From Isoetes taiwanensis (taxonomy: Eukaryota; Streptophyta; Lycopodiopsida; Isoetales; Isoetaceae), in contig JAJEKV010000053.1 of assembly GCA_021234155.1 (NCBI GenBank), positions 9,121,798 to 9,185,797 of the forward strand: a stretch of 64,000 nt of DNA. Direction: 5' to 3'. Every line of letters starts with the position of its first letter. The stretch's first letter is position 1. Below are positions 15,573-64,000 of the stretch, in pieces. The position numbers and the translations under genes are program-made. The notes under the pieces were generated by a model that was not told where the DNA came from, searched no databases, and saw nothing but the letters and a program-made list of their open reading frames with translations.

Positions 15573-17163
15573 TTAACTGGGCCAACCAACCGGAGGCTCT
15601 TCCAGAATGGCTCCATTCCCATATCTGCCTATGTCATCAGGCACAATATCCTGTAATCTGGCTATATCATCGGGCACAACATGATCCAGTGATCCTTCCT
15701 CTGCATCAAAATGGCTGAAAAAGGATGGACCTGATGTGAACCACTCATAATTCAGTTCTCCAGGTTTGGCATATTTCTGCCTGAAACAAACAAAAATAAA
15801 GTTTCAGAGAAACTTTAAGACCATTAGACTAAACAACTCGACATACCATTCTTGGTCCTCAATCATAATATCTGTCATTCCAAATGCCTTCAACTCTTCC
15901 CTAGTATGGTGGACGAGCAGGCTGTATCTGCATTAGAAAAAAAAAAAGTTCTTTTTACAGGTTTAAGATTTCCTAAGAAAATATGCTGTTTACCTTCCTC
16001 CAGGTCCAAGCTCCATAACCATAGATCCGGTGTTACCAAAATTCCATAAACCTTCAAACTGATCAACTGTCCATTTGTACCATCTCATCAGGAAAACCCT
16101 CAAGGTAAGCCCATGTGAGACAATAATCAGATTCACATAATTGGACTTCTCTTCTGGTCTCTGAAATCGGCCTATTTCTATATCCCCTCTCAGTGTTTCA
16201 CGAAAGCCTGATTTAAAGCATGTCAGCTACTAGTTATCTGTTTGTATGGCAGAGAATGAAGCGCTTGCCTGTTATCCTGTCGTAAACATCTGCTGCAGAT
16301 TCTCCATTAGGGAACCTATAGAAGAACCTGCCATATCTTAACCTGATAGCCTTTTCTACTCTCATTCTTTCCCTGTCTTGAAAATTTCCTGCAGAAAAGA
16401 TGCTGTAGGCTGAAGCTAAGAAAATAGTATTTGCAGAAACTGAAGAGCCATATCCAGCAAAAATGATAGACTGTAACGAAATGAAAGATCAATGCAAAAA
16501 ACGAATCTAGACCTAAAGATGCAAATATGAAGCAATGCAATGTGAATAATCAGCGTAGAATATGAAGGGGCAGAATGAAAGATCAATCGAATAGACAAAG
16601 GTGAAAAACCCTAAATTATTTTCCTTACCAAAATCTTGCTCGCGGAGCCTTGGCTCTTCACGAACTCCGGCAATCCTTTCTTTTTCAAACGCCATGCCCA
16701 TAGCTCTCAAGGTCTGGAGAGTCCGTTTGTAAGGGGATACATAAAAATAAACTTTCCAATCCTCTGCTCCATCGCTTTCTACAAGATTTCTTATTCTTTT
16801 CCCACAATCAATGGCCTGCCTCCAACCATCCTCTGTTAGGGCAATTTTAGAATCCGGAATCTTTGTGTAACAACTCTCGTCTATATTCCCTTGGCTTTCC
16901 CCGTGCCGTACCAGAATAATCCTTCTAGGTCGAGGTGGGGGTTTGGATTCTTGAATAGAATGTGAAAAAATTCCTCCATTTTGAGAATCTCGACTCAAGG
17001 CAAGAGGAAGAAACTTACTTCTGCAACGCTTCTGCGCCGTGGCCACACATCTATCGCATTTTTCTGAATTTTGGAGTCGTCTAAACAGCAAATCTGCCAA
17101 AATGGGGTCAGATTGTGCATATCCCTGTGCCAAGAACTTTGCACCAGTGCTAGACTCTGCCAT
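15573..17163 (-). CDS. Phosphoglycerate-mutase-like protein (AT74-type, histidine phosphatase superfamily)
   Basis: Predicted phosphohydrolase or mutase that uses a phospho-histidine intermediate; the substrate of this plant family is not settled from sequence. Exons are 16629-17163, 16269-16388, 15994-16207, 15847-15927 and 15573-15780, totalling 1158 nt, 385 residues and a TAA stop. The catalytic motif RRIILVRHGESQGN is at about residues 80-94, YFYVSPYKRTLQTL follows, REQDFGNFQ spans exons 1-2, and the second histidine is in LIIVSHGLTLRVFLMRW in exon 3. The match to plant AT74 proteins continues through FEGLWNFGNTGSMVMELG. An N-terminal extension of about 78 residues with scattered basic residues precedes the domain and could be a targeting peptide. 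All exon junctions keep frame; the second intron uses a GC donor (AG|GCAAGC). It looks intact and is the best host gene in the window. The start is the first ATG in the open frame. Confidence 0.9.
16208..16268 (-). other. GC-AG intron
   Basis: The donor reads ACAG|GCAAGC and the acceptor TTAAATCAG|GC. Splicing here joins RITG to FRETLRG in frame, matching the family, so the GC donor is real rather than a misread GT site. GC-AG introns are a known minor class in plants. Confidence 0.8.
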
Positions 17164-34675: not shown

Positions 34676-37600
34676 TTAAACATGATCATAAAAAAGTAGA
34701 TGAGTCTCAGAATCCTCATCTAACTCATCACTCTCACTCTGTATGTCAACATCTTCTAGTATACTATTCAATCTTTTCAGACAACTCTCTCTATGTTGTA
34801 AAAGTTCTAATAGATAGTCACCAATCTTCCCTCCATCTATGGAGAAGAAGGTCTGGAGATCTTGTGCATGAATCCCATGTTGCATTCTCAGTGAATAGTA
34901 TGCACTGCATCTTAGTAATGCATGATCTTCATCTTCCACTTGGTCCTCGCCATAAACTTTACAATATCTCTCACTTCTTGGTATGATTTGGTCCCATCTG
35001 CCAGTCTCCACTCCTAGACGGTGTGAGCTAAGACGAATCCTGCCCAATGCATGTCTTTTCTTGATTGAGATATTGTCCTGTAAATACTTAGCTGCTACTA
35101 GCCCAGGGTTCATCTGTTGTTTGTACAGGATCATTTTCGTTTTAGGCTGCGACCACATCTTCTTGTATACTTTATCTAAAACCCATTGCCTCAGATTCTT
35201 TCCCTCTAGTAATGCTTCCTCCCATCGGATATCCCATCTATCCAGCCATCTAATAGCATCCTGAAACCATCCTTTATCTTTGCTAGCTGATAAAGCCTTA
35301 TGTGGTAGCCGTGTATCATCCATCAAAGTTAACTTCTTTAAATACCGAATACATCGAATCATGGCTTCTCCTTCTAGAGGTAATAAGCCACATTCCGTCA
35401 GCATCATTTGATAGGGTGTTTGGGCCTTAACTCCCAGTTCAAGGCGTATGAATTTCTTTTGTATCTGTTCAAGATCATCCCATAGTCCACGTGGAAGACT
35501 GGGCCCCCATACCTCACTGCCATATAGAGCTACACTTTGTACCAAAGATTCAAAGAGTCCTTTTTTAAGTGGCCAAGCCCATAAGTGCGCTTCCCTGCAT
35601 AGGCTTTGCATAGCATAGAGTGCTTTATGGCTGCCATCTATTCTCTGATGAATGCAGGCGTTCCATCTGTGATTCCTGTGGAAAATCAGCCCTAGATATT
35701 TATAAGAATCACAAGTACTTACCATTTGGTCTTTATATCTGAACGAAGTTTCTTGTTTTAATGCTCCCACTGTCATGATATTTGATTTATCCAGGTTTAC
35801 TTGCATCCCTGTGGCATCACAGAACCGGGCCAGCCCATCTAGATGCTGTTGCATATGCTTCACAGAGCGAGCAAAGATGACCACATCATCTGCATACATC
35901 AGAAGCTGGATTACATAGCCATGAATCTCTATTCCACCTGGGCAGTTATCTTGTAGCCATTTTTCCAAGCTATCAATGAATAAACCGAACAGCGTGGGGG
36001 ACATTGGGCAGCCTTGCTTGACCCCAATGTTGCTACTAACATATTCTCGTTTGTCTAATGAGAGAGGAAATGACAATTGTATCAATACCTGCTCATACAA
36101 TCTTTGTACTGCCTCTCGCAACTGCTCCGGTACCTGTAGCTTATCCAATCTCCTCCATAGCTGCGATCTAGGTACTTTGTCAAAAGCCTTCCTAAAATCT
36201 ATGAAGGCTACATACACTGGTTTCTTCGTGCCTTTGACTGTCTCAAATATAGTCTTGAGTACCAGTAAGTGATCGATTGTAGATCGGCCTGCTCTGAATC
36301 CAGCTTGTGTTTCTGCTCTTATGTTATTTGTTTCAGCCCACAGACTTATTTTTCTCTCTAATATAGATGCAAGAAGTTTTGAGAGTAAGCTGCTCACCAA
36401 TATGGTTCTATAATTTCCTATATCATTGATATCACCTTCTTTATGGACTGGAACCACTCGGTTAACTTGCCATTGCTCAGGCAAGCCATGTGCCAGTGCT
36501 TTGGAAAACAAGTCTGCTATGACATAGTGCAGCTTTGGGCCTGCCCATTTCAAGTGTTCCGCACATAAGCCTTGTGAATCTTTTGCTGTGCCATTGGATT
36601 GATGGTCAATACCATCTGAAACATCTTCAGCCGTGATCACAAGATGGAGTCCTCCCTGTTGTCTGATATTGGGATGTTCTCCAGAACTATGGTATAGACG
36701 GTGCACATATTGCCATAATATTTCTGCTGTAATTGGAAATTCTGTTTGCCTATTCTTACGGATAGTATTCCAAAAACTTTTTGGATCCGAGACATAGTTT
36801 TGACATAAAAGCTCTTGCCGAGAATGGATAAATTGTCTCTTTTTCTGCCTAGTGATCTTCCTGTACTCCTTCTTATAATGTTCTTTCTCAGAATCAAGAC
36901 TCAGCTTCCATTTAAGCTTAGCATCCTTGCATGTCTGATCATACCATGCTTTACATGGCAGCCCCCATAAAATTCGTTTTGAAGTGAAAACTTCTTCAGC
37001 CACTGTTGATAGCAGTTTACTTAATTGTTTGCTAGCTATCGTTAGATCCGGATCCCAGTTTATCTCCTGTACCTTTTGCTCAATCATAGCCTGGTAACAT
37101 GCTTTTAGGCTTGGTTTCAGATAATATCTCTGTGTCTTATTTGTTTCAGTCACACCATAGTTTTTTCTAATGCTAAGAGTAAATAATAATGGGCAGTGAT
37201 CAGATTCTAAGTTTTCTTCTCCAACTCGAAAATCTGATATTTGATTTAGTGTGCGATCTGCCATCATGACATAATCGACTGTGCTCTTAGCACGGCATGT
37301 ATTTCTATGTGATGCTGGAAATCGTTCTAAGCCATTGCATATCAGCAAGTTTGCGCTGCAGCATAATGTGAGCAAGGATCGCCCTGTTTTTGTTACAATT
37401 TTATCATGAGATTGCCTGCTCCATCCTTTATTCATTAAATCGTCTTTATCCATTTGATCCAGCCAAAGAGGATCATCCATCTCGGTATATATTACTGCTT
37501 GCTTGCTTCCTGTTCTTCCATTAAAGTCCCCAGCCAAAATGATTTCGCCCTTGGATTGGAAACATATGATATCCTGTTCAAGATTGAAGAATATATCGTC

Positions 37601-37975
37601 TTTAGAGGCATCTGTTACAGCATAAATTCTTTTGTGTCTTGGTGCAAAATAGCATATAGCCATATAATAGGAAGCATGCAGCCCATTAATTTCTATTCAG
37701 ATGTATTGCCCATTCTTATCTTGCTTAATCCCTTTCACAAGGTTTCTGTAACATGGTCTTGTGTAGCATGCAATTCCACCATTTCCATTATCCATTGCCT
37801 TAAATCTCTTACATCTTACTGAATATGTTAATTCAAAACCTGGTATTTCTGGTAAAGCATACAATTCATGTTCCTTAGTCTCCGTAAAAGCATATCAGAT
37901 CTATTTTCTCTAGATTATCCTGCATAGTTACCACTTTATCAACCGTCAATCTGTTAATATTCCATACAGCTATGT
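34676..37975 (-). pseudogene. LINE D ORF2 (endonuclease-RT), 995 codons open but N-terminus broken
   Basis: From 37663 to 34676 a single frame contains, in order, the endonuclease C-terminal half (ILAGDFNGRTGSKQ, ESDHCPLLF), the linker (GLPCKAWYDQTCK, RQELLCQNYVSDPKSFW), RT (GFRAGRSTIDHLL at about residue 456, FIDFRKAFDKVPR, NIGVKQGCPMSPTLFG, YADDVV at about residue 590, KYLGLIF) and the C-terminal zinc region CKVYGEDQVEDEDHALLRC. The second Cys of the usual C-x2-C is Tyr here. The upstream 300 bp has stops in the frame that would encode the start of the endonuclease. The long open frame suggests a fairly recent copy. Confidence 0.85.
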
Positions 37976-55180: not shown

Positions 55181-55548
55181 CTACTGAAAATTAGTCAAAA
55201 CACCGATTTATTTCTAATACACATATGAATGAGGTGCAAACTTTCTTTGGAGCTGAACAAAAACCTTTGCGATCAAAGAAACCGAATGAATATTGTGTTT
55301 TTTTCCTTCTGAAGGTAAGCCACTAAATCTTACCATTTTGAGTTCTTCATTTTCCGACATTGTGTAAGTCCCCAGACTTTTCTCCTTTCAGCTTTCTGCG
55401 ACGATGTGGCGTTCCAAAGACAATTATCGGTCCCCGGGGCGTATCTTTGTCTTTGCCAAATCGCAGCGATACCATACCACCATTTGGCGTTAATGCGTCG
55501 GCGACGTAACGTAGCCAGCGGTAGCCCTAGGGGGCAACTTGCAAGGAG
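55181..55548 (-). other. Sequence between the PTH2 relic and the LTR
   Basis: GC-richer than its left neighbour. On the minus strand a short frame MSENEELKM ends at a splice-donor-like GTAAGA (about 55333-55362), possibly a first exon or 5' leader of the PTH2-side gene. Not demonstrable. Confidence 0.25.
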
Positions 55549-57086
55549 TGTGCATTTATTAATGTGCACATTTAACCATGTGCACATTTATCTAGGTGCA
55601 CATTTTCCCATGTGGACACTTTATGCCAAGTGGACCATACCCAAGTGTGCAATTAATGTGCACATTTACCAATGTGCACATTTATTAAGGTGCACACCTT
55701 TCCATGTGGGCACATTTTGCCACCTAGCCATTAAAGGCAAGTGGGCCCATTCCCAATTATCCCACATGCCTAAAGGGGATAATTGGAAACCCTAGCCAAC
55801 CCCTTGTCTATTTAAGAAGGGAAACCCTAACTTGCCCATTTTTTGTTCCTAGGGTTTTAGAGCTCTGTTTTGACTGGCTGCCCCAGGGGTCAAAACCGCC
55901 TCCCCAGAACTTGCGAGCGAATTGCCCCATTAGTTTCCCTTGATTCGAGCAGTTTAGCAGGATGGTTGAGCTCAGGTCAGGAGGAGGAGCTCAAGGATCA
56001 GGTATTTCGTCAATTTAATAGCCTAAACCATCTTCTAGTCATTTAATTAGTAGGTTTAGCCTATTAAATTGCCCATAGCAGCCCTCTAGATCTCTAGATA
56101 CCAGACTCTAACTAAAGAACCTAACTCTATGATATAGATTAGATCTTGTTCTTTAGTTCTTCTATGATGTATATGGATGATGTATCTCTATGAACTCCTT
56201 GTATTGGGAAGGGGGGGAGAGACCTAAAGCTTGGTAGTAGATGCTCCTAGATTAGCCTCTCTAGCACACTATAGTTCGGCCTGTGTACAAGAGCCACACA
56301 CAGTTGTGGGTGAAGGGGCCGCACCGGCTTAGAAGGAGGTTCGTGTCCCCGACCCTTCAACGATCCTTCCGGTGTGTAAGGCCTCACCGGGATCATTGTG
56401 ACTAGGTCTAATGGCTTACCACCGAGTGTGGGTAAGGCATGGGCTCGACACCCAGAGTGAAGTGGTGTACACTTTCCAAAGGTTCATCCGAATAAGGGCG
56501 GTGGCCCTCTCTAGTCACCTTGGGTCGAGCATGTAGACCTCACGGAGGGAGTGATCCCTACACCCCCCATCGAACCGGGAGATGCAACCCGGGAATAGCC
56601 CCTTTGGCTATGCCTCCTAAGGGCTTCTGATCCAGTCCCAACACTTTTCAGCCTACTCGCAAAGTGTGCACAAGAGGGGCGGATGGAGTGGACAACCCTA
56701 AGCCATGTTCTTATGCCAGCCAAATCCATTGCCATGAATTCTGTCTGCAATGAACTCTGGAGACCCAAGCCGTCAGTCATTCCCTCGAGTCTGAGCCTTG
56801 GGTAGGACCCCTATGTATGATGCTGATCATTGTCTATGCAGATGTTGGTGCACCACCCTTCGGGGTGGGTATGTGTTTATGTTGTATACTGACATGTATG
56901 TTTACGCTTCCGCAGCTAGGTAGGCCCTGAGGGAGACGGGGTAAAATGACCCCTTCACTCTTCCCACTGGGACTCGTTACGGGTGCAGTGATTGTGGAGG
57001 GCCCTGTATCAGTGTGGAGCTGGTATGGGGGATGAACTCCTGTTTGTATACGGTGGATGCACCGTATGTGAGTAGGGGACGTCACA
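55549..57086 (+). repeat. 5' LTR
   Basis: The right edge is firm: ...GACGTCACA, then one base and the primer-binding site. The left edge is a guess at TGTGCATTT (55549), because the 3' LTR is not in the window; a TGTGAC at 55103 is an alternative start that would pair better with GTCACA. The first ~200 bp carry a repeated latgtgcacatttA-like motif (about eight copies of tgtgcacattt variants between 55549 and 55700). A TATA-like ctatttaag at about 55808 precedes presumed transcription start. Confidence 0.65.
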
Positions 57087-57087
57087 G

Positions 57088-57099
57088 TGGTATCAGAGC
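57088..57099 (+). other. Primer-binding site for initiator tRNA-Met
   Basis: TGGTATCAGAGC, the standard complement to the 3' end of plant initiator tRNA-Met, one base after the LTR end. Confidence 0.95.
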
Positions 57100-57295: not shown

Positions 57296-57362
57296 GTCTC
57301 ACACGTCGCGCCAGGACAGATAATGAGAATCTCATTTTCGGGCTGGGCGCAACGTGTGAGAC
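57296..57362. promoter_or_regulatory. 67-bp near-palindrome, type A, module 1
   Basis: Starts GTCTCACACGTCGCGCC and ends GGGCGCAACGTGTGAGAC; the centre is aatgaga/atctcatt. It can fold into a hairpin nearly end to end. First of four equal-length copies inside the element. Confidence 0.9.
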
Positions 57363-57497
57363 ATTCAGCTTGGAACACACTAAAAAGTCATAAATTACAG
57401 AAAATTAACTTGATAATTCTAAAATTGAGCTAAGAAGTAGTAGAATTGGCGGGTTGCATCCTCAGAAAGTATAAAATTTAGTAGCGGGACCCACCAT

Positions 57498-57564
57498 GTC
57501 TCACACGTCGCGCCAGGACAGAAAATGAACTTCTCATTATCGGTCTGGGCGCAATGTGTGAGAC
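57498..57564. promoter_or_regulatory. 67-bp near-palindrome, type B, module 1
   Basis: Same length and ends as the type A copy, but with the centre aatgaacttctcattatcggt. It lies 202 bp after the type A copy and 77 bp before the TATA box at 57641. Confidence 0.9.
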
Positions 57565-57640
57565 CATGCTTAAAATTAGGTGTTTTAGATGTTTTAGGCA
57601 ACCCAAAAAGGTAGTTGAAATTTGACCTAAAATCGACCCC

Positions 57641-57649
57641 TATAAATAG
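57641..57649 (+). promoter_or_regulatory. TATA box of module 1
   Basis: TATAAATAG, 109 bp upstream of the ATG at 57750. The following leader (ctgctct ... aggcgatctt) is shared with module 2, supporting a duplicated promoter. Confidence 0.7.
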
Positions 57650-57749
57650 ATCTAGACCCCCCCATTTCCGCGTCCCTTCCTTAGAAAATCTGCTCTCGTT
57701 TGCCAAGGCGATCTTCTGGCGCATAGCTCGGATCGGCGAACCGTCGAAT

Positions 57750-58986
57750 ATGGCCCCTGGAAAGCGGATCGCTAGGAAGCCCCGCCCCGAGGCGAATCTT
57801 CCAAATGCCAAAGGACCCCATACGATACGAGGGATACCCAAGAACGCTTTTTTCGGCAAATCTTCATCCGAAGAGGGAGGCGCACTGCACCAAAGCGACG
57901 TAACGGAGGTCATAGGGCAGGAGCAGCCGGATGTCATGCAACAAATCCTCGAAGAAATCGCCGAGGAGGAAAGGAGGAGCAAGGAGGAACGAGAGCAGCA
58001 GGGGCAGCCGACCGTCGAAGAACAACTCGAAGCTTGGGCCCGTCTGGAGGAAGCTGAGGAGAGGGAGGAGCAGCAGCAGCCGAAGCTTAGCCCTGCTGAA
58101 GAAGCAGACTCATGGCGCTCATCGCCAAGTATGAAGCCAAAGAGCCCCGCCGAGAGAGGAGGACAAAAAGACGGGAGGACGAAGCTAACCACAAATGCAT
58201 GAAATAAGAGAAAGAGGGCCAAAGGCATTAAGGCGGGCAAGAGAACAGTTGTGAAGGTTGGTAACCGAGCGCAGGGTCCCGTCATCAATGAGCCATCAGG
58301 CAAGCAGACCCCGCCTTCTACCGACGACTCGGACGAAGATTACGTCCCCAACACTGGGGGGGCAAGCTCTTCGAAACCCCCGGTCGTGGAGAAGGAAGTA
58401 CCCGAAAGGTGGCACTTGAGCAGAGCAGCCCGCAGGCCGGCTCCCACCATTCCCGACGGGGATAGGGTCAAAGTCCCACGGCCACAACGGGAGGCGTACG
58501 TGATAGACCCCGTCAAGGTCTATCAGAAGAAGATCAAGGAGCACAACGCTTACATGGCGAAGTGGGAGGCATACAACGCTTACTACCAGGAGCACAGGGT
58601 GAGAACAATTGAAGGCGGACGCCCGACAAAAAGCCAGACCACGGCCGCCGCCACCCGTGCCCAAGCCTCCTGAGCATCGAAAGAAGCGGACCAACAAAGA
58701 AGCGTATGAGCAGAGAGCCCTCAAGGAAATCCGGCACTTCCAGCGAAGTTACGGACTCTTGATCCCCCGGGCACCGTTTCAACGCTTGGTCCGAGAGGGT
58801 ATGCAAGAGTATAACACAGATATGCGGGTGACCGATGAAATGTTGCTGTGCCTACAGGAGGCAGCAGAGGCAAAACTGGTGCAGCACTTTGAAGATTCGA
58901 CGGCCTGCACAGTTCGCGCGAAGAGGGTCACGCTCATGAGACAGGATATGCATCTTGCGAGGCACATCAAGGGAGAACGCCCTTGA
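57750..58986 (+). pseudogene. Histone H3-fold protein with long N-terminal extension, carried by the LTR element
   Basis: Starts at ATG 57750. The frame runs to 58202, meets one TGA (58200-58202, from a likely CGA), continues in the same frame to about 58605, then needs a one-base shift into the frame ending at TGA 58986. The first ~285 residues are low-complexity: a basic start (MAPGKRIARKPRP), an acidic coiled-coil-like stretch (ILEEIAEEERRSKEEREQQ) and a basic proline-rich linker. The last 89 residues (58717-58983) align without gaps to the H3 fold to its C-terminus: ALKEIRHFQ (alpha N), LLIPRAPFQRLVRE (alpha 1), CLQEAAEAKLVQHFED (alpha 2), AKRVTLMRQD and LARHIKGER (alpha 3 and end). It sits between the primer-binding site and gag in sense orientation, behind its own TATA box. 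Function unknown; nucleosome incorporation or chromatin targeting is inference. Confidence 0.85.
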
Positions 58987-59130
58987 ACTTTTTGTAAATA
59001 ATGAAAAATTTTGCTAATATAAAGAATTTTTGTGTAAATAATGTGTCCAATCTTGCTTAACTAGGTTAAGATATTGAATTCTAGCTTTTGTTTTGATCAA
59101 ATTGGACTTTTTGAGCAAAATTAAGACGAT
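58987..59130 (+). terminator. AT-rich 3' region of module 1
   Basis: Follows the H3-fold stop with tttgtaaataatgaaaaa and aatataaag, resembling plant polyadenylation-signal regions. It separates module 1 from the second hairpin pair. Inferred from composition only. Confidence 0.35.
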
Positions 59131-59197
59131 GTCTCACACGTCGCGCCCGGACAGAAAATGAGAATCTCATTTTCGGGCTGGGCGCAACGTGTGAGAC
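59131..59197. promoter_or_regulatory. 67-bp near-palindrome, type A, module 2
   Basis: Nearly identical to 57296-57362, including the gagaatctcattttcggg centre; 1835 bp downstream of it. Confidence 0.9.
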
Positions 59198-59329
59198 CAT
59201 GCCCAAAAATGCCCAAAACAGCTCCAAATTGACCAAATAAGGGGTCAATTCTGCCTAACTCGGCGAGTCCAGTAAGATTAGACCCTTAGATCACCCAAAT
59301 TGATCAAGTTTATCCCATTTAGAGCCCAT

Positions 59330-59396
59330 GTCTCACACATCGCACCAGGGCAGAAAATGAACTTTTCATTATCGGTCTGGGCGCAACGTGTGAGAC
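59330..59396. promoter_or_regulatory. 67-bp near-palindrome, type B, module 2
   Basis: Matches the type B copy at 57498-57564 (cattatcggtctgggcgcaa); 199 bp after the type A copy. Its left arm has drifted (cacacatcgcacc). Confidence 0.9.
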
Positions 59397-59587: not shown

Positions 59588-59596
59588 TATAAATAG
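59588..59596 (+). promoter_or_regulatory. TATA box of module 2
   Basis: TATAAATAG, 124 bp before the ATG at 59712, followed by the same kind of leader (cccccccatttc ... ttgctct ... aggcgatcttc) as in module 1. Confidence 0.7.
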
Positions 59597-59711: not shown

Positions 59712-61224
59712 ATGACCACTGCTGACTTCAGGCGATGGTACAGCGCCAGTACCCATGCTACCGAGGCGGATGTCAATGACATCTTCCGAGTCTTTGGGAA
59801 AGAAATAGATGTCCAAGCCACTCTGAATGCAACCCCAGCATATAGACAAGTCTTAGCAGAGTTCCAAGCTAGGTTAGGACCCTCCCTCGTTCAACTTGCA
59901 TAGGCTATTTTGTTCCCCGCCCATCCCTTCAAACAGCCTTGGGCGATGTCCCCAACATCGCCAAGTACTTAACTAACAATAGGCGCAGAGGCTGCCAGAC
60001 TACATGTCCTGACAGTTGACAGGACCAAGTATTTCTCCTATACCGCCGCCCTAGCTATTTTCCTATCCCACCATGCCGAAAACCCAATGGGGGCAACCTC
60101 TATAGGGATGGAGGTGGACCCCATAGCAGCCCAAGCAGAAGAGCGGATGCTTTTGCAGTACCAGCAGGAGCAAGAAGGAAGAGAAGAAGAAGAGGAGTCG
60201 GACGACGAAGAGTACACGGAGCTCGACTCAGACGAAGAACGGCGCCAAGCAGAGGAGGAGCTGGCCAACATGGAGCGGAGCCGGCAGACCCTCAGGATCG
60301 CTCCCCCACTTGAACTAGGCATCACAAGCCTAGCCCCCATCATCATCAACGGAGAGGAGTATTTACTCCTCAGTGACATCCAGAACCTCCCCGAATGCAG
60401 GGAGAGGGAGCTCAGACTTGATGAGTTGCTGCACCAACTACGGCAGCAACCAGAAATGGACGACTTCATCGTCCGAGGAGCCTCAGACTTCCCGCTTCAA
60501 GTGCGAGAAGCCGACACCTACACAGGGGAGTCGACTTCTGATATCCAGGCCTTCAGCAGCATAAGACAGGTTATGGAGGCCGGAGACCTGCCATCGGAAG
60601 AAGAGTTCCTCGCCATCCAGGAACGGATGGGGATCAGAGGCAAGACCACCAGCATCTTGATGCCGAGCCCCTCGACACCACCTCCAACAAGAGGAGCAGG
60701 AATCGACATCAGGCGAGTCGACTCCACAATTGCAGACTACCGGGAGCTGACTGAGATAGAGGTCGACGACTACGCTGGACGGCATAGAACGGGAGGCCAA
60801 ACAAGTGGAGAATCATCTGCGACACACAATGACAGGTCGCTGAGGTACTACCTGCCCCTGCTGCTGGATGGGAGAATAGCGGTGATACACCGCAAATTCG
60901 GCCCACGAGGTGAAGAGGGAGTGTTCATGCTTATTGCACTCTCAAGCTTCGGCAGACATAATAGCGGCAAATGTCGACTATGCTGTTCTAGTGAAGAGAG
61001 CAATGGCAATGGACCTCTTTGACTTCGCCATGCCCTACCGACGGCAGGGAAGATTGGCAGTAGCCGCGGCCTACACCTCCGACCGCAGGGTGGAAGAGTT
61101 GGTGGCGGCCTTGCAGGGCGGGACGTCGACCAATGTCCTTAGGAACTTGGGAGCCTCAATAGGAACGGCCCAAGTTAAGAAGTTCCTAGAGGACAACCCA
61201 TCTTACCGGCGATTTCAAGATTAA
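59712..61224 (+). pseudogene. Unrecognised acidic protein of module 2
   Basis: ATG 59712 opens a frame encoding YSASTHATEADVNDIFRVFG and following residues to a stop at 59903. The same frame reopens at about 59970 (RLHVLTVDRTKYFSYTAALA) and runs from 60087 to 61022 with a very acidic block (EEEEESDDEEYTELDSDEE at about 60185-60240), then mixed sequence. After a one-base shift near 60950, another frame continues to 61224 (DYAVLVKRAMAMDLFDFAMP ... NLGASIGTAQVKKFLEDNP). An intact version would be about 500 residues. No family is recognised; it is not a histone by inspection. The acidic block is the kind seen in histone chaperones, but that is only a compositional likeness. Confidence 0.6.
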
Positions 61225-61442: not shown

Positions 61443-62639
61443 ATGGAAGAACAGAGTCCGCCCAGGCCACCCCCGGCAAGGAACCTGTTTGAGGAATTTG
61501 GACCCATGACCCCAGAAGAGGAAATATCACAGATAAGAACGGACCTTGAGCAGATAAAGGCTTTGCTGGCCGCACAAGCAGGAGCAGGTTCGGTGGGCAA
61601 CGCTCAGTTGCCTCAAGCATCAGCTTGGAAAACAGGCAGGGACAAGAAGAGGAGCAAGAGAAGGAGGTCCTCCAGCTCGGAATCCTCCGACTCAAGCTCC
61701 GATTCGGACTCCGACTCTGAGGAAGAGGAAGAGCAGGCCCAGGACCGAACAGATGGAAGGCAGAGGAACACTGCAGATGGAAGACAGAGGGATACCACAG
61801 ATGGACGACAAAGGGACACAAGAACCTCTGATTACCAGAAGAAGGTAGATTCGGCATTGGGAAATGTTTGGAAGGCCAGGAAGCAATTCTCAGGCGAGAA
61901 CAGGTCAGGCATGGAGGCAGAGGCTTGGCTCGATGAGATGAGTGAATATGGCAATGCTTATGGTATGAAGGACAAGGATAAAGGCAGGGTGGCAACAGCC
62001 AACCTGAAAGGAGCAGCACGCATATGGTGGAAGGGGTATGCAAAGGCCCATGGCTTGAGCAGGGATGCTTGCAGGTTCAGGAAGTTTGCTAAAGCCTTCA
62101 AGCGCCATTACATCCCAAGAGAGCACAAGTCCAGCATGATGCAGCAATTCTATAGGTTGCAACAGGGAAACAAATCAGTCCAGAAATATACAGAGGAATT
62201 CATGAGGCTAAGGCTTTATGTGCCAAAGTTGGGCGAAAAGCATGCAGTGGAAAGCTATATTGAGGGGCTGAATGATGAGATCCGTAAGCTTGTAAGGGCA
62301 ATAAACCCTAAGACAGTATCAGAAGCAGAGTCCAAGGCAATAAGTTTGCAAGGAACAGGGCCTCAGAATAGCGGGCAGAGGCAGCAGTATTATCAGGACA
62401 AAGGCAAGGCAACAGGGAGTTATAGCCCTAGGGCAGCCAGCCCAGGCCCAGCTAGAGCCCCATATGGTGGCAACCAGGGAAAGCAGCAGGAAAAGAAGCA
62501 GGTGTCCTTCAAGGACAAGCAGGGGGGGTCAAACTACTCCAAAGCAGTGCGATCCTTTTTGCAGGCTATGCCCAAGGAAAAGAGGCAGGAGTGCATAGAA
62601 AAGCAGCTTTGCTTTAGGTGCTTCCAGCTCAGGTCATAG
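61443..62639 (+). pseudogene. Gag polyprotein, Ty3/gypsy type
   Basis: Structural protein that would form the virus-like particle and bind element RNA. The first ATG in frame is at 61443 (MEEQSPPRPPPARN). Features in order: a basic and Ser/Asp/Glu-rich block (KKRSKRRRSSSSESSDSSSD, then EEEEE), three repeats of DGRQR(N/D)T, and the retrotransposon gag domain (GAARIWWKGYAKAHG, FAKAFKRHYIP, YTEEFMRLRLYVP, YIEGLNDEIRKLV). The zinc knuckle starts CFRC and would read CFRCFQLGHRTANC, but one extra base at about 62627 shifts the frame and gives a stop at 62637-62639. Confidence 0.9.
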
Positions 62640-64000
62640 GACAGCGAACTGCCCCTACGTCATGAGTGCGGCACTAGCGGAGTTGGGAGATTGGGACATT
62701 CTGTCTGATGACGACGGCGAGGCAGGCCGCGACTACATCCAGGGTGAGTGTCATATCTTTGCCGCAATAGATACAGAGCAAGCAGAGAGCCAGTATAAGG
62801 TAATTTCTACAGTAGGGAAGGCCAAGGCCAAGTCTTTCATAGTCTTGATAGTGCATCCCCCAGAATGGTTGAAATGTTGAAGTTGAAACCATTAAAGTCG
62901 AAGCCAAGGCCCGTCGTCTTAGCAAGTGGAGCAGTAAGGCAGACGGCAGGTAAGAGAATTAACTTCGACATTGACCTGCCAGGGATTAATATCTAGATGG
63001 GGGCAGAGGTAATGGGCATTGGCAAGTATGACCTGATCATAGGAATGGAGTATCTTGGACCAGCAGGGGCCATCATCGATTGTGGGAAGCGGAAGATGAC
63101 ATTCCCAACGCCCGACGGCAAGATCATTGAGATCACAGGTAAAGAAGTTGTCCCCATCATGCAGTGTATGTCTTCTAAGCGACTGTTCAAGTGCATCAAG
63201 AGCGAGCAGGTAGCTTACATCTTCAAGCTTGAGATTGAAGAGCCGGAGTTGGAAGAAAGCAAAGAAGACAAGATGCTCAGCAAGTTGCCGAAGCAAATAG
63301 CTAAGTTGATCACGGAATTCCACGATCTCTTCCCAGATGAGATCGAGCACCTCCCTCCTTACAGGGGAGTCGAGTGTGAGATAGCACTCGAACTGGGAAC
63401 GAAGCCGACAAGTAAGGCCCCATACAGAATGAGGACGCAGGAGTTAACGGAGCTAAAGAAGCAATTGCAGGAGTTGCTCGACCTAGGCTTCATTAGACCT
63501 AGCATCTCGCCGTTTGGAGCGCCTATTCTGTTTGTTAAGAAGAAGGATGGCAGTTGAACAAGCACACCATCAAGCACAAGTATGCGCTCCCCAGATCAGA
63601 TGACTTGATGGATCAGCTCCAGGGTGCAAAGGTCTTCTCCAAAATTGACTTAAGGTCAGGTTATCACCAAATCCGGATAAAGGAGGAAGATATCCATAAG
63701 ACAGCTTTCAGAACCAGGTATGGGCACTATGAGTTCACGGTAATGCCTTTCGGCTTATCGAATGCCCCCGCGACGTTCATGAGGCTCATGAACGACATCT
63801 TCAGGGAGTTCTTGGACACCTTTGTGATAGTATTCTTTGACGACATTTTGGTGTATAGCAGATCCCTTGAAGAACACGTACAACACTTAAGGAGAGTGCT
63901 GGAGAAATTGAAGAGGCACCAGTTGTACGCCAAGTTGTCGAAGTGTCACTTCGCAACGGAGAAGGTGGAATACCTGGGTCATGTGATCTCAGCGGAAGGA
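62640..64000 (+). pseudogene. Pol: protease and reverse transcriptase (truncated by window)
   Basis: After the gag shift the frame continues to 62880 (ELGDWDILSDDD ... GKAKAKSFIVLI). In the next frame LDSAS (Asp codon at 62847) stands where the D-S/T-G-A protease active site is expected, one residue short. LKPLKSKPRPVVLASGAVRQ and YDLIIGMEYL complete the protease fold; a TAG at 62994 interrupts it. RT starts near 63270 with FPDEIEHLPPYRGVECEIAL, YRMRTQELTELKKQ and [11 protein letters not shown] deletion of about 28 bp after DGS removes the conserved RxCxDYRxL segment and shifts frame. RT then continues: [61 protein letters not shown] and EYLGHVIS at the window end. Confidence 0.9.

Follow-up and report, generated by a model that had tools for sequence, protein, structure and literature searches.

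A Ty3/gypsy LTR retrotransposon of Isoetes taiwanensis encodes an H3-type histone, and the family to which it belongs, numbering at least hundreds of copies and possibly thousands, has kept this full H3 variant, whose fold shows a dN/dS of ∼0.04 among the copies studied. In those copies the variants show that the element lineage maintained a real H3 and that individual copies decay after insertion. Most of the element described here lies at the right end of the window, i.e. the whole 64,000-nucleotide stretch of DNA that was analysed (C1060:9121798-9185797); the assembly containing it amounts to 1.66 Gb, and all copy counts refer to this one genome. The first-pass annotation of the window had considered the histone gene to be the element's own and not a pseudogene that had landed there by chance. 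This is supported by its constant position, its copy number, the purifying selection acting on it and the recurrence of a promoter-like module upstream of it, and the gene is assigned to the element on these grounds.

In the window the H3 gene occupies positions 57750–58986 of the forward strand, downstream of the primer-binding site and upstream of gag (Table 1). Its fold matches Pfam Histone PF00125 (E = 2.5e-26), a sequence comparison with solved structures ranks H3.3 first (E = 3.2e-25, query residues 33–123), and it aligns with canonical plant-type H3 without a gap (49 of 88 residues identical), confirming the gapless H3-fold gene that the annotation had placed inside a Ty3/gypsy element. 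Three details of that description were amended. The sense-strand coding region does end in the fold but is not a single open frame in the window copy, where the frame that opens with the ATG at 57750 (frame 3) is closed by a TGA at 58200 and the reading frame shifts between 58603 and 58673. The low-complexity acidic and basic stretch reported ahead of the fold is present, but the N-terminus is also that of an H3: the MAPGKRIARKP found here is a decayed MARTKQTARKP. Finally, the gene does lie between the primer-binding site and gag, but ORF2 (59712–61224) also intervenes before gag. In open copies, the protein consists of a tail that is canonical at residues 1–9 and has a proline at position 10, an insert of ∼300 residues in which acidic and basic stretches occur, and, last, the fold. 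The linker, some stretches of which are very basic, matched nothing in a comparison set of 240 proteins.

Table 1. Features of the element within the window (position 1 is the first nucleotide of the window)
Feature	Position	Strand	Basis or remarks
5′ LTR	55499..57086	+	left edge approximate; end = ACGTCACA
Primer-binding site TGGTATCAGAGC	57088..57099	+	sequence; exact in 7/10 other copies
Hairpin A, before H3 gene	57296..57362	+	repeat and fold, −39.8 kcal/mol; covariation
Hairpin B, before H3 gene	57498..57564	+	repeat and fold; covariation
TATAAATAG box before H3 gene	57641..57649	+	109 bp before H3 ATG; exact in 8/10 other copies
H3 N-terminal tail	57750..57782	+	MAPGKRIARKP here; exact MARTKQTARK in 44/67 copies read
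H3 gene, first piece	57750..58202	+	frame 3, terminates in TGA
H3 gene, second piece	58203..58673	+	frame 3; basic/acidic linker, conserved aromatic block before fold
H3 gene, third piece	58609..58986	+	frame 1; histone fold at 58714–58983
Hairpin A′, before ORF2	59131..59197	+	repeat and fold
Hairpin B′, before ORF2	59330..59396	+	repeat and fold
TATAAATAG box before ORF2	59588..59596	+	exact in only 2/10 other copies
ORF2, second pre-gag gene	59712..61224	+	broken: stops at 59901 and 59970, and a frame change; matched in 10/10 other copies
gag (capsid)	61443..62639	+	Retrotrans_gag E = 9.4e-18, Ty3_capsid E = 3e-16
Protease region and reverse transcriptase	62997..64000	+	RVT_1 E = 3.4e-36; pol runs past the window

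The element spans ∼13.2 kb (C1060:9177296-9190520), a length that follows from the pairing of the 5′ LTR in the window with a 3′ LTR at L018:3444-5021 (95.0% identity over 1597 columns; K2P 0.034). Ten other copies, picked as H3 matches and each fetched in two stretches, were compared with it. A credible LTR pair was found in eight of the ten (K2P 0.024–0.056), which at a substitution rate taken to be 1.3e-8 per site per year would give LTR-pair ages of ∼1–2 million years, as a rough figure only. The LTR termini of copy L084 read TGTGACGT...ACGTCACA, with TG..CA ends. By eye, a 5-bp target-site duplication (GCAGT) was recognized at L096/L097, one of the copies, but could not be made out at L084/L085. 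The match between L090 and L091 (76.8%, 2.2 kb) was dropped, not being an LTR pair. The upstream part of the 5′ LTR in the window contains 32-bp tandem repeats (55553–55717). The primer-binding site at 57088 is presumably of the tRNA-iMet type, and two extra genes, the H3 gene and then ORF2, separate it from gag. From there the order is gag followed by reverse transcriptase, RNase H and integrase: the RVT_1 match places the start of the reverse transcriptase at ∼63554, and RNase H, integrase (rve, Integrase_H2C2) and a chromodomain were found downstream in L018. The protease was assigned by reading, RVP_2 reaching E = 0.14. Gag, in which reading revealed the remnant of a zinc knuckle, broken in the window copy, returned one weak match (26%) from the 5.8-billion database when the best 8000 candidates by shared words were scored, and scans of viral contigs found no relative. 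By its LTRs, primer-binding site, domain order and chromodomain the element would be a Ty3/gypsy chromovirus.

When the genome was searched with the fold of the window copy, all 150 scored places (the best 150 of 9551 loose candidates, selected by protein similarity to the window fold) matched at 77–100% identity, the window copy included, so that restriction to a single copy, which the first-pass annotation had named as a ground for refuting its reading, does not apply. These places are distributed over 83 contigs and have open frames of 122–488 aa; a stop lies inside the fold in 13 of them and none in the other 137. Sixty-seven copies, again including that of the window, were read. The fold is gapless in all of them and carries a stop in five; 44 have the exact MARTKQTARK upstream in some frame and 23 lack the exact tail; 31 have an uninterrupted frame running from the exact tail through the fold (398–439 residues) and 36 do not. 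A 32-base degenerate pattern for MARTKQTARKP, which is independent of the fold and which host-type ARKS tails do not fit, occurred at 419 places in the genome (216 forward, 203 reverse), the reversed control giving 0 and 0. Of the 100 tail places listed, at least 19 precede a fold from the fold list by 0.85–1.03 kb. At least 16 are followed within 10 kb by a gag from the gag list, the distance being 3.7–4.5 kb in 13 of these.

The position of the gene relative to gag is equally constant. A gag search, in which the best 150 of 16079 candidates were scored, yielded at least 33 hits preceded, on the same strand and by no more than 9 kb, by an H3 match from the fold list, against a chance expectation of ∼0.06; this is a lower bound, since each list holds the best 150 of thousands of candidates. 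The spacing was 2930–3200 bp in 28 of these 33 pairs and 3080–3198 bp in 27. Within the same best-150 lists, one gag–H3 pair lay on opposite strands and no H3 lay downstream of gag. The ten other copies contained ORF2 in every case, gag in nine cases and the integrase–chromodomain region in eight. The window copy alone, being broken, could suggest that a host H3 gene or pseudogene had been inserted by chance into one element, but the many copies (150 of 150 scored places, 419 tails), their fixed spacing and the purifying selection described below make this extremely improbable, and it was rejected. Nor was there a sign of the flanking duplication that the annotation had named as the mark of a separate insertion: the longest direct repeats between 57560–57750 and 58984–59130, a comparison of the gene edges only, measured 7 bp. 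Additional H3-fold frames of 467–567 aa (e.g. C974:15275209, C1041:9312591 and C1043:5062415), absent from the best-150 list of the fold search, match a plant CENH3 at 55–59% and perhaps represent further H3 subfamilies of the element.

Selection on the fold was determined in 66 copies (the window copy was left out). The median pairwise dS was 0.67 and the median dN 0.024, with a ratio of means of 0.037; the dN/dS of the copies examined is thus far below the value near 1 that the annotation had set against a retained gene. Having been picked for their protein similarity to the window fold, these copies have a lowered dN. The choice does not readily explain a contrast found within the same sample: singleton variants gave a nonsynonymous to synonymous ratio per site of 0.87 (35 missense + 3 stop versus 12 silent), while variants common to at least two copies gave 0.076 (26 + 2 versus 101). 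The low ratio of the shared variants and the near-neutral singletons indicate that the element lineage is under strong constraint and that copies drift after insertion. For shared variants, the 31 open copies gave ratios of 0.049 in the fold, 0.141 in the conserved block before the fold and 0.288 across the whole linker; the corresponding singleton ratios (0.296, 0.574 and 0.824) are low because open copies had been chosen. The open copies are uninformative for the tail, having been chosen by the exact tail, which makes the counts zero by construction. The tail was analysed instead in those 53 of the 67 copies whose tail matched at 7 or more of the 11 positions, giving ratios of 0.156 for shared variants (7 versus 14) and 0.93 for singletons (12 versus 4); K4 is present in 52 of these copies, R8 and K9 in all 53, and P10 in 52. 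A further measure, the number of conserved columns kept (26 of 29 at the 98% level versus 25 of 59), is biased, the matches sharing words with the element, and was given no weight.

The distribution of constraint bears on what the protein might do. One explanation is that it serves as a decoy, its free tail and fold sequestering the host's readers, writers or H3 chaperones and weakening silencing without stable incorporation into chromatin. The exact A1–K9 tail and the many copies would suit such a mimic, as would Pro10, which would be expected to block Ser10 phosphorylation, but the fold (0.049–0.076) is more constrained than the tail (0.156) and the linker (0.288). A real histone role is favoured over mere tail mimicry for this reason, and a decoy function seems rather unlikely.

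Within the fold, R72, K115, R116 and C110 are kept in all 67 copies, and R69, R83 and D123 in 66 each. R69, R72, R83, K115 and R116 are taken here to be the DNA-touching residues of H3, and the fold, the most constrained part of the protein, includes residues presumed to contact DNA and H4 in nucleosomal H3. Most copies depart from canonical H3 at around 40 positions of the fold. The changes R63P, K64R, L65A, K79N, F84V, Q85T, Y99K, L103H, N108T, P121R/K, K122Q and R129H are fixed or nearly fixed in the 67 copies, and those at R63, L65, Y99, L103 and N108 might make a normal nucleosome less stable. K56R was dropped from the fixed changes, position 56 being R in 39 copies, K in 27 and a stop in one. 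H113R was likewise dropped as a functional clue: His occupies this position in 65 of the 67 copies and Gln in one, the Arg being private to the window copy. A predicted monomer model had helices at 28–45, 53–66, 75–105 and 110–119, in the order found in H3, but was weak in overall shape (pLDDT 70.8, pTM 0.40). The 50 Foldseek matches listed for it were all nucleosome or histone-octamer chains, at 44–55% identity, with a TM of ∼0.5 and an rmsd of 8–17 Å. Since the overall shape of the model is poor, the fold assignment rests on the sequence.

Several residues are held in common with plant CENH3 (HFQ, LLIPxAPF, RxTxE and TLMRxD), raising the idea that a host CENH3 was the ancestor of the gene and that the protein guides the element to centromeres, which CRM elements reach by different means. 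The window copy is identical to rice CENH3 in 53 of 90 columns, as against 49 of 88 for canonical H3, and in a tree five element copies fell on the CENH3 side of the H3s. The support for this placement (88/50) is not significant, however, and with the window copy alone the grouping was no firmer; a tree built on 89 columns cannot decide the origin. The alignment score is higher with canonical H3 (240) than with three CENH3 references (227, 220 and 186); the loop-1 insertion is absent, the fold being gapless against H3 and showing gaps against all three references; the C-terminus is H3-like, ending in HIKGERP and without the G-rich, PW-containing end of CENH3 type; and the canonical tail MARTKQTARKP... 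is one that the CENH3 references lack. Capture of a CENH3, considered for the shared residues, is judged improbable. Element copies and what seem to be host H3 genes were retrieved with a CENH3 query (P0062), and no host CENH3 exon was picked out among them; the best rows of this query include four H3 matches at C1025:2.98-3.28 Mb, with open frames of 161–232 aa, which are perhaps host H3 genes.

Among the proteins compared with the fold, the highest-scoring (55 of 88 identical) belong to a family of long-linker H3 proteins encoded on metagenome contigs. Its members (P0194–P0238; ∼240–640 aa), found on many separate contigs and several of them starting with MARTKQTARKNTGGK, have a long insert before the fold and share HFQ and LCLQ with the element fold; the linkers are unlike. 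That many members are diverged and seemingly broken suggests another repetitive, possibly mobile, carrier of H3. A scan of genome contigs with this family gave nine loci (L001–L009), all of them resembling H3 and located in contigs that bear bacterial MAG titles; presumably they are contamination.

The regions preceding the H3 gene and ORF2 are diverged duplicates of one another (72% over 277 bases, E = 2e-33). Each has the layout of two hairpins ∼200 bp apart, followed by TATAAATAG (TATA) and a C run ending in CATTTC. The four near-perfect hairpins, of 65–67 nt, form two ordered pairs (57296–57564 and 59131–59396), and hairpins were present before the H3 gene in nine of the ten other copies and before ORF2 also in nine. 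The distance from the TATAAATAG box to the H3 ATG was 109–111 bp in the five other copies in which both could be located. Among 97 distinct 65-base hairpins, the inner pairs 25–31 change on both sides; counted over all pairs, two-sided change cells numbered 100, whereas in 200 shuffles they averaged 44 and never exceeded 58, kinship being ignored. The outer ten pairs were largely fixed by the search pattern and lengths other than 65 were dropped, so the inner pairs alone are informative. Because of these compensatory changes it seems that the hairpin itself is kept, either at the RNA level or as a two-fold site in the DNA. The module looks promoter-like, which suggests that the H3 gene is expressed separately. 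ORF2 is also constrained (shared variants 0.283, single ones 0.908, in 15 copies of which five have a stop); a family search found nothing convincing for it, and a single-sequence structure model was uninformative (pLDDT 36.5).

The arrangement of the genes also bears on whether the H3 protein might be used in the manner of a nucleocapsid, coating or compacting the cDNA or RNA of the element in the particle or pre-integration complex with no role in chromatin. The location of the gene upstream of gag, the very basic stretches of the linker and the broken zinc-knuckle remnant, as read in this copy, would fit such a use. The canonical H3 tail is kept, however, although packaging would not need it, the promoter-like module points to separate expression, and constraint is strongest on the fold, including the residues with presumed contacts to DNA and H4. 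The probability of a packaging function is accordingly considered small, and both this and the decoy function are less favoured than a role in chromatin.

The preferred interpretation, held to be somewhat the more probable, is that the element H3 is a nuclear variant that pairs with host H4 and is built into chromatin, where it aids either targeting or resistance to silencing. Having kept the DNA-contacting arginines, it would pair with host H4 and enter nucleosomes, perhaps variant ones, or tetrasomes. With K4 and K9 kept, Ser10 replaced by Pro and core lysines changed (K64R, K79N and K122Q), it might carry host chromatin marks or evade them. The benefit to the element would be a usable chromatin state, in the form of chromatin marked for its own integrase complex, with its chromodomain, or of copies that resist silencing. 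Targeting is suggested by the presence of a chromodomain in the same element; an anti-silencing effect is considered because the proline at position 10, unlike Ser10, offers no phosphorylation site and because several of the modifiable lysines of the core have been lost. The two are regarded as equal alternatives.

The chromodomain, at the C-terminus of the integrase in L018, matches Chromo PF00385 (E = 1.8e-10; 41 bits, with a cut-off of 25.1), and its best solved match is Chromo domain protein 1 (E = 9e-6). Compared by eye with an HP1 sequence, cage positions one and three are Ile/Val and Leu, and the Trp is kept; the domain would therefore appear, by eye, to be of group II, without the first and third cage aromatics. 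According to two papers, plant group II chromodomains lack the first and usually the third cage aromatic (PMC3350952, PMC3059260); one of these adds that plant Gypsy elements were the only source in which such domains had been identified and that, as of 2012, their partner had not been found (PMC3350952). Without those aromatics, classical reading of methyl-K9 on the tail is not expected. A simple methyl-K9 explanation is thereby weakened, and the H3 encoded by the element itself stays a candidate for the partner. It is conceivable, if on balance doubtful, that the group II chromodomain of the integrase recognises chromatin containing the element-encoded H3, which would then be a self-made address label, both written and read by the element.

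Histone H3 is among the most conserved of host proteins, and we know of no retrotransposon with a histone H3. Ogre/Tat elements have an extra ORF between the primer-binding site and gag that is of unknown function and is not known to encode a histone; the present element resembles them in that extra frame and differs in its histone and chromodomain. With plant chromoviruses it has in common the LTRs, the tRNA-iMet-type primer-binding site, gag, the reverse transcriptase–RNase H–integrase order and the integrase chromodomain; unlike them, it has two extra pre-gag genes, one a full H3 variant, each of which lies in the window behind a duplicated hairpin and TATA module. Compared to other H3 variants, CENH3 included, the protein has the same fold, gapless with canonical H3, an identical A1–K9 tail and some CENH3-like residues, but it bears the ∼300-residue insert and the ∼40 fold changes and is encoded by a mobile element.

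Capture of a host gene by a chromovirus is of a known kind; H3 as the captured gene is new, as far as is known. The available text of one study describes Phalaenopsis Gypsy elements that carry an AlkB-type m6A demethylase, a host-derived domain fixed in many copies, and reports 15 frequent extra domains in 25,565 consensus sequences from 121 angiosperm genomes, section 12 naming no histone domain (PMC9289625). Both cases thus concern a large Ty3/gypsy lineage with an extra host-derived domain in many copies, an RNA demethylase there and a core histone here. CRM centromeric retrotransposons are, like this element, Ty3/gypsy chromoviruses linked to special H3 chromatin, but they use a C-terminal motif of the integrase, and no element-encoded histone is mentioned for them in the portions of the source available (PMC3059260). 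A search of the open-access literature, covering titles and the starts of abstracts among the matches listed and leaving most subscription papers and bioRxiv preprints outside, found no LTR retrotransposon encoding H3. If the H3 protein does enter chromatin, nucleosomes made by the element may wrap part of the genome. The H3 and the chromodomain form a matched pair within one element, making directly testable the question of the group II partner, given as open in 2012 (PMC3350952). The many copies also provide a natural catalogue of tolerated H3 changes.

Elsewhere in the window, reading revealed LINE-type reverse transcriptase frames at 34676–37663 and in neighbouring frames, one of them 995 aa long, beside long runs of the AG dinucleotide, and a frame on the reverse strand (16513–17163) resembling an exon of a plant phosphoglycerate mutase-like host gene.
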